Assembly: GCF_002022005.1 (NCBI RefSeq)
Contig: NZ_CP017258.1
Span: 372,001-436,000, forward strand
Direction of reading: 5' to 3'
Length of the DNA stretch: 64,000 bases
Source: Campylobacter pinnipediorum subsp. caledonicus
GTDB taxonomy: Bacteria; Campylobacterota; Campylobacteria; Campylobacterales; Campylobacteraceae
Part shown: piece after piece, positions 43,925 through 52,889 of the stretch
Layout of the letters: each line of letters begins with the position of its first letter
How positions within the stretch are numbered: the first letter of the stretch is position 1
Made by a program: the position numbers and the translations under genes
The notes under the pieces: model-generated
Seen by the model: the letters and a program-made list of their open reading frames with translations, nothing else
Database searches by the model: none
Told to the model about the DNA's origin: nothing

Positions 43925-46702
43925 ATGAACAGAAGAGATTTTATAAAATCAGCTGCTGCTTCTGCTGCCTGTGCTAGTGCTGGCATAAGTGTGCCTAGCG
44001 GTTTGTCAGCAAATGAGGGTGAAAAAGGTTGGCGATGGGACAAGGCAGCTTGTCGTTTCTGTGGGACTGGTTGTGGTATTATGGTTGCTACAAAGGGTGG
44101 CAAGATAGTTGCTGTAAAAGGGGACCCAGAAGCACCTGTAAATCGTGGCTTAAATTGTATTAAGGGTTATTTTAATGCAAAAATTATGTATGGTGAAGAT
44201 CGTATAATTCATCCACTTTTGAGAGTAAACGAAAAAGGTGAGTTTGATAAAAAAGGTAAGTTTAAACAAGTTAGTTGGCAACAAGCTTTTGATGTTATGC
44301 AAACTCAGTTTAAAAAAGCATACGATGAGCTTGGACCTCACGGTATAGGTATATTTGGCTCAGGTCAATATACTATCCAAGAAGGATACGCTGCTGCTAA
44401 GCTTATGAAAGCTGGTTTTAGAAGTAACAATATAGATCCAAATGCTCGTCACTGTATGGCTTCTGCTGTTGTGGCTTTTATGCAAGTTTTTGGTGTTGAT
44501 GAACCATCTGGCTGTTTTGATGATATAGAGCTAACAGATACTATAGTTACTTGGGGAGCAAATATGGCAGAAATGCACCCTATACTTTGGTCTAGGGTTA
44601 GCGATAGAAAGCTTAGTGACCCTGAAAAAGTAAAGGTCGTAAACTTAACCACTTACTCTACAAGAACTTCAAATTTAGCAGATATAGAGATAGTTTTCTC
44701 TCCATCTACTGACTTAGCTATTTGGAACTATATAGCAAGAGAGATAGTTTATAACCACCCTGAGATGATAGATATGGATTTTGTGCAAAAGCACTGCGTA
44801 TTTACAACAGGTCCGGCTGATATAGGTTATGGTTTAAGAGATGATATAAAACACAAAAAATACTCTCCAAGTGAGCTAGATATAGCTTCAAAAGAAAAAT
44901 CAAAAATAGTAAGTGAAGCTGAGGGTGTTACTCTTTCTTATCTTGGTTTAAAAGCTGGAGATACACTTGAAAATAAAAATACTAAAAAAGCTGGTAGTCA
45001 CTGGCATATAACATTTGATGAGTTTAAAAAAGCACTTGAGCCTTATACGCTTGATTTTGTGGCTAAACTTGCAAAAGGAAATCCAAATGAAAGCATTGAA
45101 GAATTTAAAGAAAAGCTAAAAACTTTAGCTGATTTATATATAGAACAAAATCGTAAAGTTGTAAGCTTTTGGACTATGGGATTTAACCAACACCAAAGAG
45201 GCACTTGGGTAAATGAACAAGCCTATATGGTGCATTTCTTACTTGGCAAACAAGCCCTTCCTGGTTCTGGTGCATTTTCTCTTACAGGACAACCAAGTGC
45301 TTGTGGAACAGCTCGTGAGGTTGGAACATTTGTTCATAGGCTTCCCGCTGATATGGTTGTAGGAAATCCTAAGCATAGAGAGATCGCTGAAAAAATATGG
45401 AAACTTCCAAAAGGCACTATAAATAGTGTTGTTGGCTCTCACTATGTTAAGCTAATGAGAGATTTGGAAGATAGCAAGGTTAAGTTTGTATGGGTTCAGG
45501 TAAATAACCCTTGGCAAAATACAGCAAATGCAAACCACTGGATAAAAGCAGCAAGGGAAATGGATAACTTTATAGTTGTTTCTGACCCTTATCCTGGTAT
45601 ATCTGCTAAGGTTGCTGACCTTATCTTACCTACTGCGATGATATATGAAAAATGGGGTGCTTACGGTAACGCTGAGCGTAGAACGCAGCATTGGAGACAG
45701 CAAGTATTACCTGTAGGTGAAGCGATGCCTGATATTTGGCAAATACTTGAGTTTTCAAAGAGATTTAAAATAAAAGATTTTTGGAAAGAGACAAAGTTAA
45801 ATGACAAAGTAACTCTTCCTGATGTTTTAAGCGAAGCAAAAAGCATGGGTTATAGCGAAGATGATACATTGTTTGATGTATTGTTTGCAAACGAAGAGGC
45901 AAAAAGCTTTAGTGCTGATGATGATATCATGCAAGGCTTTGACAATACAGAAGTTTTTGGAGATAGTAGAAAAGTTATTGGTTCTGATGGTAAAGAATTT
46001 AAAGGCTATGGATTTTTCATTCAAAAATATCTTTGGGAAGAGTATAGAAAATTTGGCTTAGGTCATGGGCATGACCTCGCTGATTTTGATACTTATCATA
46101 GGGTTAGAGGTCTTAGATGGCCTGTTGTTGATGGTAAAGAAACTCAGTGGAGATTTAATACAAAATTTGACCCTTATGCTAAAAAAGCTGCTCCAGATGA
46201 GAAATTTGCATTTTATGGAAACAAAGCAGCTGCACTTTCTAGTGGAAATTTAACAGGTGTAACAGATAAAGATAAAAAATCACTTGCAAACAAGGCTAAA
46301 ATTTTCTTTAGACCTTATATGGAACCTTGCGAAATGCCAAGCGAAGAGTATCCATTCTGGCTATGTACTGGCCGTGTTTTAGAGCATTGGCATTCAGGTA
46401 CTATGACTATGCGTGTTCCTGAGCTTTACCGTGCTGTTCCTGAGGCACTTTGCTATATGAGCGAAGAGGATGCTAACAAACTTGGCGTAGAGAAAAATGA
46501 TATAGTTTGGGTAGAATCAAGAAGAGGCAAAGTAAAAGCTAAGGTTGAGCTAAATGGTAGAAACAAGCCACCTATGGGGCTTGTTTATGTGCCTTGGTTT
46601 GATGAAAATGTATTTATAAATAAAGTTACATTAGATTCAACTTGCCCACTTTCAAAAGAAACTGATTATAAAAAATGTGCAGTTAAAATTTACAAGGCTT
46701 AA
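43925..46702 (+). CDS. napA: Periplasmic nitrate reductase catalytic subunit
   Basis: 925 residues, the long form typical of Campylobacterota. Twin-arginine signal [11 protein letters not shown]. [4Fe-4S] motif C-x2-C-x3-C (CRFCGTGC) near residue 46 with the fourth cysteine in GLNCIKGYF. Molybdopterin-guanine dinucleotide oxidoreductase domains follow, including the conserved [10 protein letters not shown]-type segment ([10 protein letters not shown]) whose Cys ligates molybdenum. It reduces nitrate to nitrite in the periplasm. First gene of napAGHBFLD, with ribosome-binding site AAAGGAG. Confidence 0.98.
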
Positions 46703-46704
46703 TC

Positions 46705-47457
46705 TTGCTAGATAGACGAGAAGTTTTAAAATTTACAGCAAAAGGCATAGCGCTTGGTGTTGCTGGTGGATTTATCTTTAAAGAAGTAGCTAGTGCCAAA
46801 AGCACTACTCTTCTTCGCCCACCAGGAGCAAAGCAAGAAAGCGAGTTTTTAAAAAGCTGTATTCGTTGTGGGCTTTGTGTTGTTGAATGCCCATTTGATA
46901 CATTAAAACTAGCAGATATAAAAGATGGCATTGCGGTCGGCACTCCATTTTTTGAACCAAGAAAGACACCTTGTTATATGTGTACTTCATTGCCTTGTGT
47001 TACCGCCTGTCCTACAAGTGCTTTAGATACTAGTTTGGTTAGTACTAAGGGTAAATTAGATGCGAGTAAATCAAAAATAGGTGTAGCTGTTGTTGATATG
47101 AAGCATTGTGTTGCTTACTGGGGTATTCAGTGTGATGCCTGTTATAGAGCCTGTCCATATATAGACAAGGCTTTATATCTTGAATACAAAAGAAATGACA
47201 GAACTCAAAAACACGCATTTTTACTTCCTGTTGTTGATAGTGATATTTGCACCGGATGTGGGCTTTGTGAAAGGGTTTGTATCACACAAGATCCAGCCAT
47301 TGTGGTAATGCCACGAAATAAAGTCGTTGGTAAAGTAGGTGATAATTATATAAAAGGTTGGGATAGCAAAGATGAAAATAGACTTAATAATACAAGCACA
47401 GATATAAAACTTGATAGCAAAAAAGCAATTGATTATTTAAATGATGAGGAATTTTGA
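46705..47457 (+). CDS. napG: Nap ferredoxin-type protein NapG
   Basis: 250 residues from a TTG start 2 bp after napA, with AAGG upstream. Twin-arginine signal (DRREVLKF) and four [4Fe-4S] motifs (CIRCGLCVVECP, CYMCTSLPCVTACP, CDACYRACP, CTGCGLCERVC). With NapH it takes electrons from menaquinol towards NapB/NapA. Overlaps napH by 4 bp. Confidence 0.96.
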   Translation: MLDRREVLKFTAKGIALGVAGGFIFKEVASAKSTTLLRPPGAKQESEFLKSCIRCGLCVVECPFDTLKLADIKDGIAVGTPFFEPRKTPCYMCTSLPCVTACPTSALDTSLVSTKGKLDASKSKIGVAVVDMKHCVAYWGIQCDACYRACPYIDKALYLEYKRNDRTQKHAFLLPVVDSDICTGCGLCERVCITQDPAIVVMPRNKVVGKVGDNYIKGWDSKDENRLNNTSTDIKLDSKKAIDYLNDEEF

Positions 47458-48257
47458 TGAAAGTTTTATTTTTTAGAAGATTTATTCAAATTTCCTTACT
47501 TGTCTTGTTTATATCTAGCAACTACTATGGACTAAGTCTTTTAAAAGGCGATTTTAGTTCATCTTTGATTTTAAACACAATACCTTTAAGTGACCCTTTT
47601 GCTGTTTTACAGCTAAGTTTGGCTGGTTTTAGTGTAGGGTTTAGTGCTATTTTTGGAGCTTTTATTGTATTTATGTTTTATGCTTTGATAGCACCAAGAG
47701 CTTTTTGTTCGTGGGTTTGTCCTGTCAATTTATTTGTTGACATGGCTTTTAAGCTTAGAGAAAAATTTGGCTTTAATAAAGAAAAAAAGTTATTAAATTT
47801 AAGCAAAAAAACTAGATATTTTCTGCTTTTATTTACTCTTATCTTTTCTTTTATGCTATCTTTTGCCGCTTTTGAAAGTGTGAGTTATATAGGTTTATTA
47901 GCTAGAGCTATTATATTTTTAAACTCTTCTGTTTTTGGCATTATTTTATGCATTATTGTTTTTGAGATGTTTATAATGCAAAGAGGAATTTGTTCGCACT
48001 TATGCCCCCTTGGAGCATTTTATGCAATTATCTCTAGATTTTCGTTTATTCGTATTGCTCATGACTTAGACCATTGCACAAAATGCAATAAATGCAAGAT
48101 AGTATGTCCTGAAGTTCAGGTTTTAGATATGATAGGTAGGCGTAGTGATTTTGTCAAAAACACAGAGTGTATAAGCTGTGGGCGTTGTATAGATGTTTGT
48201 GATGACAACGCTTTGAAATTTAGTATTAGAAATTTAAGGAGAAAAAATGAAAATTAA
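47454..48257 (+). CDS. napH: Nap quinol dehydrogenase membrane component NapH
   Basis: 267 residues with four membrane segments (about 11-28, 62-83, 121-143, 152-175), cytoplasmic CxxxCP motifs (FCSWVCPVN and ICSHLCPLG), and two C-terminal [4Fe-4S] motifs (CTKCNKCKIVCP and CISCGRCIDVC). It forms the quinol-oxidising complex with NapG in place of NapC. Overlaps napB by 11 bp. Confidence 0.96.
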   Translation: MMKVLFFRRFIQISLLVLFISSNYYGLSLLKGDFSSSLILNTIPLSDPFAVLQLSLAGFSVGFSAIFGAFIVFMFYALIAPRAFCSWVCPVNLFVDMAFKLREKFGFNKEKKLLNLSKKTRYFLLLFTLIFSFMLSFAAFESVSYIGLLARAIIFLNSSVFGIILCIIVFEMFIMQRGICSHLCPLGAFYAIISRFSFIRIAHDLDHCTKCNKCKIVCPEVQVLDMIGRRSDFVKNTECISCGRCIDVCDDNALKFSIRNLRRKNEN

Positions 48258-48768
48258 AATAATATCATCAGCTATTTTAGTTTTTTTGATGGCTGCTTGT
48301 GATATGCCTTCAAAAACTGTTAGCGATACAGAAATAGGCATTAGGAAGGTTGAGCTTTCTAATGAAAAAGATGTGGTATTAAAAGATATTAATTGGACGG
48401 CTGCTCCAGCTGGGGAATCAAAAAAGTTTGATCGTTCTTTTGAAAATGCACCACCTTTTATACCTCATGATACGGAGGGTTTAGTGCCTATTACAAAAGA
48501 TATGAATATGTGTGTTACTTGTCATATGCCTGAGTTTGCAGCTGATAGCGGAGCTACAGCTATACCAGCTTCTCACCTTTATGATATAAGAAATAAAAAA
48601 GATTTGCAGGGTGTGTTAGATGATGAGAGATTTGTTTGCACAACTTGCCATGTGCCACAAGCAAATACGGATACGCCTTTTAAAAATAATTTCAAAGCTG
48701 ATTTTAGAAATCCAGATTCAAAAACAAAGTCAAACTTGCTTGAAATTTTAAATGATGGCGTTCGCTAA
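48247..48768 (+). CDS. napB: Periplasmic nitrate reductase dihaem cytochrome NapB
   Basis: 173 residues with two haem-binding motifs CVTCH (near residue 96) and CTTCH (near 136). It passes electrons from NapGH to NapA. The signal region ends LMAAC-DMPS, which reads as a possible lipobox, whereas NapB is usually a soluble periplasmic protein. Strong operon context. Confidence 0.95.
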   Translation: MKIKIISSAILVFLMAACDMPSKTVSDTEIGIRKVELSNEKDVVLKDINWTAAPAGESKKFDRSFENAPPFIPHDTEGLVPITKDMNMCVTCHMPEFAADSGATAIPASHLYDIRNKKDLQGVLDDERFVCTTCHVPQANTDTPFKNNFKADFRNPDSKTKSNLLEILNDGVR

Positions 48769-48770
48769 AA

Positions 48771-49238
48771 GTGCAGCGCAGAGAGCTATTTGGTAAATTT
48801 TTGGGTGCAAATAAAAATGCGCCCAAATTTATAACCCCACCTTATTTTAGTGGAGAGTTTGATTGTAAAGATTGTTTAGCACCTTGCGTTGATAGCTGCG
48901 ATAGAGAGCTACTTAGCTTAAAAGAAGATAGGATTGTTTTTGAAGTTAAAGAGCTTGGTTGTAATTTTTGTAAAGATTGTGCCTTGGCTTGTGAGCAAAA
49001 TCAAACAAATGTATTAAATATAAACAATCCTTCAAAAATAATAGCAAAAACAAGTATAGATACAAGCACTTGCTTAGCTTGGAATGGGGTTATTTGTTAT
49101 AATTGCCAAGATGTTTGTAGATTTAATGCGATAAACTTTTTTGGTGTATTTAGACCTATGATAAATGATAAATGTGTAAATTGTGGCGAGTGTTTTTATG
49201 TATGTTTTAAGAGATCAATATCAATGAGGGCAGTATGA
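48771..49238 (+). CDS. napF: Nap accessory ferredoxin NapF
   Basis: 155 residues from GTG at 48771, 2 bp after napB, starting MQRRELFGKFLG like NapF. Cysteine-rich with several [4Fe-4S] motifs (CKDCLAPCVDSC, CNFCKDCALAC, a longer-spaced CLAWNGVICYNCQDVC, and CVNCGECFYVC). Cytoplasmic; in other bacteria NapF helps mature NapA. Not all Campylobacter nap operons have it. Confidence 0.88.
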   Translation: MQRRELFGKFLGANKNAPKFITPPYFSGEFDCKDCLAPCVDSCDRELLSLKEDRIVFEVKELGCNFCKDCALACEQNQTNVLNINNPSKIIAKTSIDTSTCLAWNGVICYNCQDVCRFNAINFFGVFRPMINDKCVNCGECFYVCFKRSISMRAV

Positions 49239-50170
49239 AGATTGTTTTTTGTATTTGTATGTCTATGATTTTTGCTTTTTGTGATGTTTTGAAAGTTCCT
49301 TATAAAACGGTAGAACTAAATGCAAATGTTTTAAATGTAGCTTTTGTAAATGATAATCTTTATATAGCTACGGATGATGGCTTGGTAATGGATTATGATA
49401 TCAAAAATGATAAATCTACAAATATACTAACTTTAAAAAAGATAAAGAATTTTTTTAATGATAACAATAATCCCAAGGTCTTAAGCATAGATGAGCTTAA
49501 TGGCAAAGTGATTGTTTTGGCAGAAGGTGATTTTGGTGATAGGATTATTTATCTTGTAAAAAATGGTATAGCTACTAAACAAAAACTTCAAAACCAGTCT
49601 ATAAAAAAAGCCTATTTTTTAGATGATGCAAATGTAGTTTTGGGTTCGCTTAGTAATGAGCTTTATTTTTTGAGCTTGAATGATAATAAAATTTATAAAA
49701 ATACCAAACTATCCACAGCCTCTATGTCAGATATGAAGTTAAGTATTGACAAAAAAATGCTTTGTGTTGCAACTGAGGGTGGTAAGGTTTATTTTTATGA
49801 CATCTTAAAGGATAAGATTATAAATACACTAGATATTCATAAAGATAAAATATATAGTATTGATTTTAAAGAAAATACCTTGATAAGCGGTAGTGTTGAT
49901 AAGTTTGCGGGTGTTTATAAAGATGGAAAAATAGATAAAATAAAGACTGAATTTTTAGTTTATGCCGTTGGCTTAAGCCCTGATTCTAATATCGGTGCTT
50001 TTGTGAATGGAGAGTTAAATGATGTTGATATAATAAACACAAGAAATTTATCAAAAATAACCACTTTAAATACAAAGCAAGATGCTATAAATGATATTAT
50101 TTTTATAAGCAACAATAAGCTTATAACTACCGCTTACGACAAAAAATTATTATTTTGGAGGATAGATTGA
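49235..50170 (+). CDS. napL: NapL-like beta-propeller protein
   Basis: 311 residues with an N-terminal signal (MKIVFCICMSMIFAFC) and repeated WD40-like blades (for example LSIDKKMLCVATEGGKVYFY). Its place between napF and napD matches napL of epsilonproteobacterial nap operons, a periplasmic protein of unclear role. Overlaps both neighbours by 4 bp. Confidence 0.9.
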   Translation: MKIVFCICMSMIFAFCDVLKVPYKTVELNANVLNVAFVNDNLYIATDDGLVMDYDIKNDKSTNILTLKKIKNFFNDNNNPKVLSIDELNGKVIVLAEGDFGDRIIYLVKNGIATKQKLQNQSIKKAYFLDDANVVLGSLSNELYFLSLNDNKIYKNTKLSTASMSDMKLSIDKKMLCVATEGGKVYFYDILKDKIINTLDIHKDKIYSIDFKENTLISGSVDKFAGVYKDGKIDKIKTEFLVYAVGLSPDSNIGAFVNGELNDVDIINTRNLSKITTLNTKQDAINDIIFISNNKLITTAYDKKLLFWRID

Positions 50171-50502
50171 ATATTTCAAGTGTGATTATATATGTAGATA
50201 AGCCTGATTTGGTTGATGAGGTTTTGGCTAGAGCAAAAGAGGTAAAAGATTGTGAGATTATAACTCATGAAGGGATTAAAATAGTAGCCGTTATAACTGT
50301 AGATAGTGTAAATGAAGAGGTTAAGAAATTTAAAGAGTTAGAAGCTATAAGCGGTGTTAGCTCTGTTGCTATGGCTTATACCTATCAAGAAGATATAGAG
50401 TTTGATAAAGACAAGATAGATATAAGTGATATGCTTAAAAACGATGATATAAAAGCAGAGGATATAGTCTATAATGGAAGTGTAGGGTATAAGATAAAAT
50501 AA
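50167..50502 (+). CDS. napD: Nap chaperone NapD
   Basis: 111 residues from TTG at 50167, chosen because GGAGG lies 6 bp upstream and the protein then begins MNISSVIIYVDKP like the family. NapD binds the NapA twin-arginine signal. The C-terminal tail (about residues 80-111) is acidic and longer than in E. coli NapD. Last gene of the operon. Confidence 0.93.
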   Translation: MNISSVIIYVDKPDLVDEVLARAKEVKDCEIITHEGIKIVAVITVDSVNEEVKKFKELEAISGVSSVAMAYTYQEDIEFDKDKIDISDMLKNDDIKAEDIVYNGSVGYKIK

Positions 50503-51273: not shown

Positions 51274-51870
51274 ATGCAATTGGATTGTAGAGGGCTTGTA
51301 TGTCCTGAACCTGTTATAAGAACAAAACAACAACTAGAGCAGATAAAAGATGGCGATAAGCTTGAAATTTTAGTAAATGAAAAAGCACCGTTTGAAAACA
51401 TCTCTCGTTTTTTAAACTCTCAACAACAAGAATTTGTTGTGGAAAACTTAAACGGTGATGAGAAAAAGATAGTTTTAAATAAAAAAGCAAAAATTACAGA
51501 TATAAATATATCTGATTATGATTGTAATTTATCTTTAAAAAATAAAAAAGTAATATATCTAAATGAAGATAGGGCTGGAAGTGGAGTTGTTGGAGAGGTG
51601 CTTTTATCGAAACTACTTGGTGCTTTTTTGCAAGTAGATAATAAACCTTATGCTGTTTTATGTGTAAACAATGCCGTTAAAATGACTACAAATAGAGCAT
51701 CAGCTTCGTTTGAAGTTTTGAAGAAATTTCAAAGTATAGGTGTTGAAGTGCTTAGTTGCGGAAGTTGCTTGGAGGCTTATGGTTTGGTTGATAAGCTTGG
51801 AGTCGGTAAGATTAGTAATGCTTATGAGATAGCTGATTTGCTAAGTAATTACGAGATGATTAAATTATGA
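51274..51870 (+). CDS. yedF: Sulfurtransferase-like selenium metabolism protein YedF
   Basis: 198 residues. The N-terminal domain is TusA-like (LDCRGLVCPEPVIRTKQQL with the catalytic CPxP), and the C-terminal half is a DsrE-like domain with SCGSCLEAYGL. Fusions of this type are typically next to selD and are linked to selenium delivery. It overlaps selD by ATGA, a 4-bp translational coupling. Confidence 0.92.
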   Translation: MQLDCRGLVCPEPVIRTKQQLEQIKDGDKLEILVNEKAPFENISRFLNSQQQEFVVENLNGDEKKIVLNKKAKITDINISDYDCNLSLKNKKVIYLNEDRAGSGVVGEVLLSKLLGAFLQVDNKPYAVLCVNNAVKMTTNRASASFEVLKKFQSIGVEVLSCGSCLEAYGLVDKLGVGKISNAYEIADLLSNYEMIKL

Positions 51871-52889
51871 TATATGATAACAAAAAACTAACAAAATTTG
51901 TTCGTTCTGCGGGCTGAGCTGCCAAGCTTGACCCGTCGGGTCTAAACAAAAGCATAGATAAGCTAAGTCTTGGAAATGAAAAATTGTTAACAGGTATTAA
52001 AAACAACGAAGATGCAAGTGTCTTTTTGATAAATGATGAACTTGCTCTTGTACAAACTTTGGATTTTATAACGCCTGTTGTAGATGATCCGTTTTTGTAT
52101 GGTCAGATAGCAGCAGCAAATTCACTAAGTGATATTTTTGCTATGGGAGCTAGGGTTACAAATGCTCTTAATATAGTTGGCTTTGATAGTTGCAACTTTG
52201 ATACAGGTGTGCTTGATGAAATAATGCAAGGCGGACTTGATAAGGTAAAAGAGTGCGGTGGTGTGATTGTTGGTGGGCATAGTGTTCAGACAACTGAGAT
52301 GTATTATGGTCTTAGTGTCCTTGGGGTAAGTCATCCTTTGAAATTCTGGGCTAACAACACTGCAAAAAATGGAGATGTTTTAATACTAACAAAGCCACTT
52401 GGAACAGGAGTTTTAAGCACTTGTATAAAAGCAGATATGCTAAATGAAGCTCAGATAAAAGAGGCTGTAGATGTCATGTCCAAGCTTAATTGTTATGCAG
52501 TGGATGCTATGTGTGATATAAGAGTAAATGCTTGCACTGATGTTACTGGTTTTGGATTTTTAGGACATCTTAGCGAAATGGGAAGAGATGATATATCGTT
52601 TGAAATTTTTGAAAAAGAAATTCCTGTAATTGAATATGCTAAAGAGATGGCTGATATGGGTTTTGTTCCAGCTGGGAGTTATAAAAATAGAGATTTTTGC
52701 TCTAAGTTTATAAACAAAGATGTTGATATTTTATTTTTTGATGCCCAAACATCAGGAGGACTTATATTAGCTATTGATGAAAAAGATTGTAAAAAAGCTC
52801 TGCAAAGACTTATTGATTGCGGTTACGAGGACTCTAGAATAATTGGGGTTGTAAAACAACGCAATAATAGACTTATTGATATAGTTTGA
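51867..52889 (+). CDS. selD: Selenophosphate synthase, selenocysteine-containing
   Basis: 340 residues if the in-frame TGA at 51915-51917 is read as selenocysteine (residue 17, in RSAG-U-AAKLDP). The frame is open from ATG at 51867 apart from that TGA and continues into the full SelD protein. SelD enzymes have Cys or Sec at exactly this catalytic place, before the conserved lysine. A hairpin GACCC / GGGTC (51930-51942) sits 12 nt after the UGA, where a bacterial SECIS is expected. The enzyme makes selenophosphate from selenide and ATP. A gene finder would start it wrongly at 51984. Confidence 0.95.
51915..51942 (+). promoter_or_regulatory. UGA-Sec codon with SECIS-like hairpin in selD
   Basis: TGA at 51915-51917, then stem GACCC (51930-51934), loop GTC, stem GGGTC (51938-51942). 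The apical GU and the distance of about 17 nt from UGA to loop fit SelB-binding bacterial SECIS elements. Confidence 0.85.

Follow-up and report, generated by a model that had tools for sequence, protein, structure and literature searches.

How is the single in-frame UGA near the start of the selD gene of Campylobacter pinnipediorum subsp. caledonicus read: as a stop, as an ordinary amino acid or as selenocysteine (Sec)? The gene lies in a stretch of 64,000 nucleotides (hereafter the window, whose numbering is used except where a contig or locus is named), and the first-pass annotation had proposed that a complete SelD at 51867-52889 is hidden by this codon, that the UGA occupies the catalytic Cys/Sec position and that automatic annotation would drop 39 codons, all of which is borne out, the last for a listing of standard-code reading frames. 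On the forward strand, selD (selenide, water dikinase, or selenophosphate synthetase; 51867-52889, 340 aa) forms one frame whose single internal TGA, at 51915-51917, is codon 17 counted from the ATG at 51867, and beyond it the frame stays open for 323 codons to the terminal TGA at 52887-52889. Read through with TGA as U, the product gives a full-length match to the SelD family TIGR00476 (profile positions 1-309 of 311), with 331.8 bits against a curated cut-off of 125, and it matches the Aquifex aeolicus SelD structure 2yye with an E-value of 1.4e-61. Residue 17, within the segment RSAGUAAK, aligns with the catalytic Cys in RSSGCAAK of the Aquifex protein, and the listed SelD motif UxxK (PMC13188914), a catalytic Cys/Sec followed by Lys, is present as G-U17-A-A-K20. 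The open reading frames listed under the standard code include only a 301-aa selD frame starting at an internal TTG (51984), which accounts for the 39 lost codons as far as such a listing goes, and selD is a gene to correct wherever an annotation begins at that TTG. Judged from its sequence, the product is almost certainly a canonical Sec-containing selenophosphate synthetase.

The conservation of the codon was surveyed in 120 genomes, including that of C. pinnipediorum itself, and a SelD with exactly one UGA was found in 76 of them. All 47 complete genes from the same genus contain one in-frame UGA, which falls at the Sec17 codon in every same-genus SelD whose DNA was read; the only named relative in a scan of genome contigs was Campylobacter majalis (68% identical). 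Other relatives have TGT or TGC at this codon, the position being conserved as UGA or Cys. SelA occurs in 75 of the 76 genomes with a UGA-containing SelD, the exception (G052) being a 57% complete genome that has a tRNA-Sec, while a long SelD match without TGA was found in 14 relatives, seven of which have SelA (co-occurrence counts obtained by comparing two listings by eye). A Cys-containing SelD can thus coexist with the Sec machinery.

The first-pass annotation had also pointed to a GACCC/GGGTC hairpin at the distance expected of a selenocysteine insertion element (SECIS), and this claim is upheld by the comparison with relatives. The apical hairpin GACCC-GUC-GGGUC (51930-51942, forward strand) has a loop that starts with G and begins 17 nt after the UGA. 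Taken singly it is a weak signal: by the same scoring rule, an equally good hairpin follows 1.2% of the 2180 TGA triplets that the window contains on its two strands. The selD TGA is unique in the window when a hairpin score of at least 7.5 is combined with an open frame of no fewer than 40 codons after the TGA and no fewer than 12 before it. When the 49-nt stretch is folded as a single sequence, a different pairing is favoured and the stability is not significant (z -0.88), so that support for the SECIS comes from covariation in relatives and not from folding energy. A search of the window with Rfam at gathering scores reported no SECIS family, which may reflect only a limit of the library.

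Stem pairing holds in 95.8% of the cells from 24 distinct Sec sequences, against 79.1% after shuffling, and stem positions changed on both sides number 25 against 7.2 in the shuffles; none of 500 shuffles reached the observed value for either measure. When the stem was slid along the alignment as a control, pairing was at most 59.2% and both-side changes at most 5, and RNAalifold recovered the identical helix unprompted. Whole arms are exchanged among relatives (GACCC/GGGUC, GGUCC/GGACC, GCUCC/GGAGC), and every one of the 39 distinct Sec sequences opens its loop with G. A downstream hairpin, a G in its loop and compensatory changes in its stem, the features that define a SECIS here, are therefore all found in selD.

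The machinery that such an element calls for is encoded in the same genome, which is a single contig (C1) of 1.758 Mb and 99.97% complete. The genes selA (C1:1328100-1329158, 443.7 bits) and selB (C1:1326236-1328041, 320.4 bits against a cut-off of 242.25) adjoin each other, a tRNA-Sec with anticodon TCA lies at C1:829529-829623, and the tRNA 2-selenouridine synthase MnmH is encoded as well. SelA, SelB and tRNA-Sec, the set expected to accompany a bacterial selenoprotein gene, had been predicted for this cell, and the absence of selA, selB and selC had been named as what would speak against the prediction; the genome search found all three, and the claim stands.

Against this background two other readings of the UGA can be weighed. 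Decoding as Trp or Cys by near-cognate read-through, independent of the Sec machinery, can draw on the Cys-SelD of relatives, several of which also have SelA, since the existence of these proteins means that Cys at the Sec17 position presumably works. It is nevertheless highly improbable in view of the covarying SECIS-type hairpin, which lies at the expected distance and has an invariant G in its loop, the complete set of SelA, SelB and tRNA-Sec, and the use of TGA as a normal stop elsewhere, for instance at the ends of selD and yedF, although low-level insertion of Cys at UGA 51915 under selenium shortage could still occur. That the UGA is a true stop, leaving selD as a pseudogene or its product to start at TTG 51984 without the catalytic segment, agrees with the 301-aa frame being the only one listed under the standard code, but there is hardly any likelihood of it given that 76 genomes share a single in-frame UGA in an otherwise intact frame, that the residues encoded ahead of the UGA are conserved and the stem shows covariation, that the internal TTG sits where the protein sequence is variable and that the Sec machinery is complete.

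If the UGA is read as Sec, established bacterial Sec biology suggests how the gene would operate. SelB carrying Sec-tRNA-Sec would bind the hairpin and insert Sec at UGA 51915, and the completed SelD would make selenophosphate from selenide and ATP. This would in turn supply SelA, and through it Sec for the formate dehydrogenases, a SelW-like protein and SelD itself, as well as MnmH for 2-selenouridine in tRNA. Because SelD needs Sec for its own completion, the supply would loop on itself; that selenophosphate supply is autocatalytic follows logically from the pathway, and the loop could be relaxed by occasional insertion of Cys. The genome is confirmed as one that uses selenocysteine, with a SelD that would depend on its own product.

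Further UGA-containing genes occur in this genome. The suggested check for a Sec-containing formate dehydrogenase returned four formate-dehydrogenase-type molybdopterin genes (L056-L059; C1:211906-213192, 349435-350733, 1111910-1113259 and 1528444-1529874), each with one in-frame UGA at an R-[IL]-U-H site followed by a hairpin with G starting the loop. Two of them are short (~760 aa) and two long (about 940-985 aa), and the group may usually have fewer than four such genes. A SelW-like (Rdx) protein of 81 aa (L103:1498-1743), with the N-terminus MQVKITYCNSUN and its UGA in CNSU, is by its sequence probably another selenoprotein, so that at least six genes appear to use UGA for Sec, counting selD, the four formate dehydrogenases and the SelW-like gene. 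The genome has no match to DUF466 (Sel_put), a family whose members are selenoproteins in some epsilonproteobacteria.

The bases of the hairpin arms are at the same time codons of selD, and for this reason the residues at positions +5 and +8 after Sec switch as a pair: among the Sec loci they are D/G in 42, A/E in 6, G/D in 6 and D/D in 1. The SECIS stem may accordingly dictate part of the SelD protein, RNA covariation driving coupled residue changes near the active site, and a stem kept by some Cys-SelD genes may be a relic that marks a recent change from Sec to Cys; we consider the chances of this proposal to be evenly balanced. In a small sample of eight Cys-SelD loci, several keep all or part of the stem, one keeps none and another has only a shifted one. 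Three Cys-SelD genes (L069, L070 and L088) can still form a stem of six pairs where the SECIS would lie, and their genomes (G055, G064 and G068) retain SelA; these stems are possibly relics of a recent Sec-to-Cys change.

The Campylobacter Sec-SelD is ordinary in that a SelD of this kind with such a SECIS has already been published. In epsilonproteobacteria, Campylobacter included, SelD has been described as both part of the Sel machinery and a selenoprotein, the SECIS elements sharing a common 5/6-bp hairpin with a guanosine that is invariant in the loop, and the authors report having found a SelD that the annotation of C. curvus lacked (Cravedi et al., 2015; PMC4607533); that of C. jejuni had been counted as a known selenoprotein (PMC1242214). 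The C. pinnipediorum gene resembles this published system (PMC4607533) in its catalytic Sec, in a 5/6-bp apical hairpin a few nt past the UGA with the invariant loop G, and in its setting of complete Sel machinery, Sec formate dehydrogenase and SelW, and a yedF linked to sel genes. It differs in its start, an ATG overlapping the yedF stop here and a rare CUG in C. jejuni (PMC4607533), and in the four formate-dehydrogenase-type Sec genes of its genome, but nothing essential sets it apart. The Aquifex aeolicus protein (2yye, 2zod) belongs to the same family and shares the N-terminal segment, deposited as RSSGCAAK, although it comes from a different phylum and has G-P-G-D at the stem positions where C. 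pinnipediorum has D-P-S-G. In Campylobacter and related bacteria SelD normally contains Sec, as already published, and the present analysis adds clean covariation evidence for its SECIS while leaving the known picture unchanged.

Directly upstream lies a yedF-type gene (51274-51870, forward strand) for a sulfurtransferase-like selenium metabolism protein (TIGR03527, 155.9 bits, cut-off 110) with a TusA domain and a DsrE-like part, whose stop overlaps the selD start in the sequence ATGA. In most same-genus loci selD is immediately preceded by a TusA-like gene. Seven relatives seemed to lack the TusA motif there, and no Sec-containing YedF was found among them, since five of the loci (L027, L032, L034, L035 and L036) have CPQP in place of CPEP/CPKP and at the other two (L028 and L055) the gene just before selD is not yedF. 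Farther upstream of yedF-selD, the window holds a periplasmic nitrate reductase cluster (43925-50502). Its napA (43925-46702), whose frame has no in-frame UGA, is followed by genes named by inspection, among them ferredoxin-like genes of napG/napH type and a cytochrome-c-like gene of napB type.
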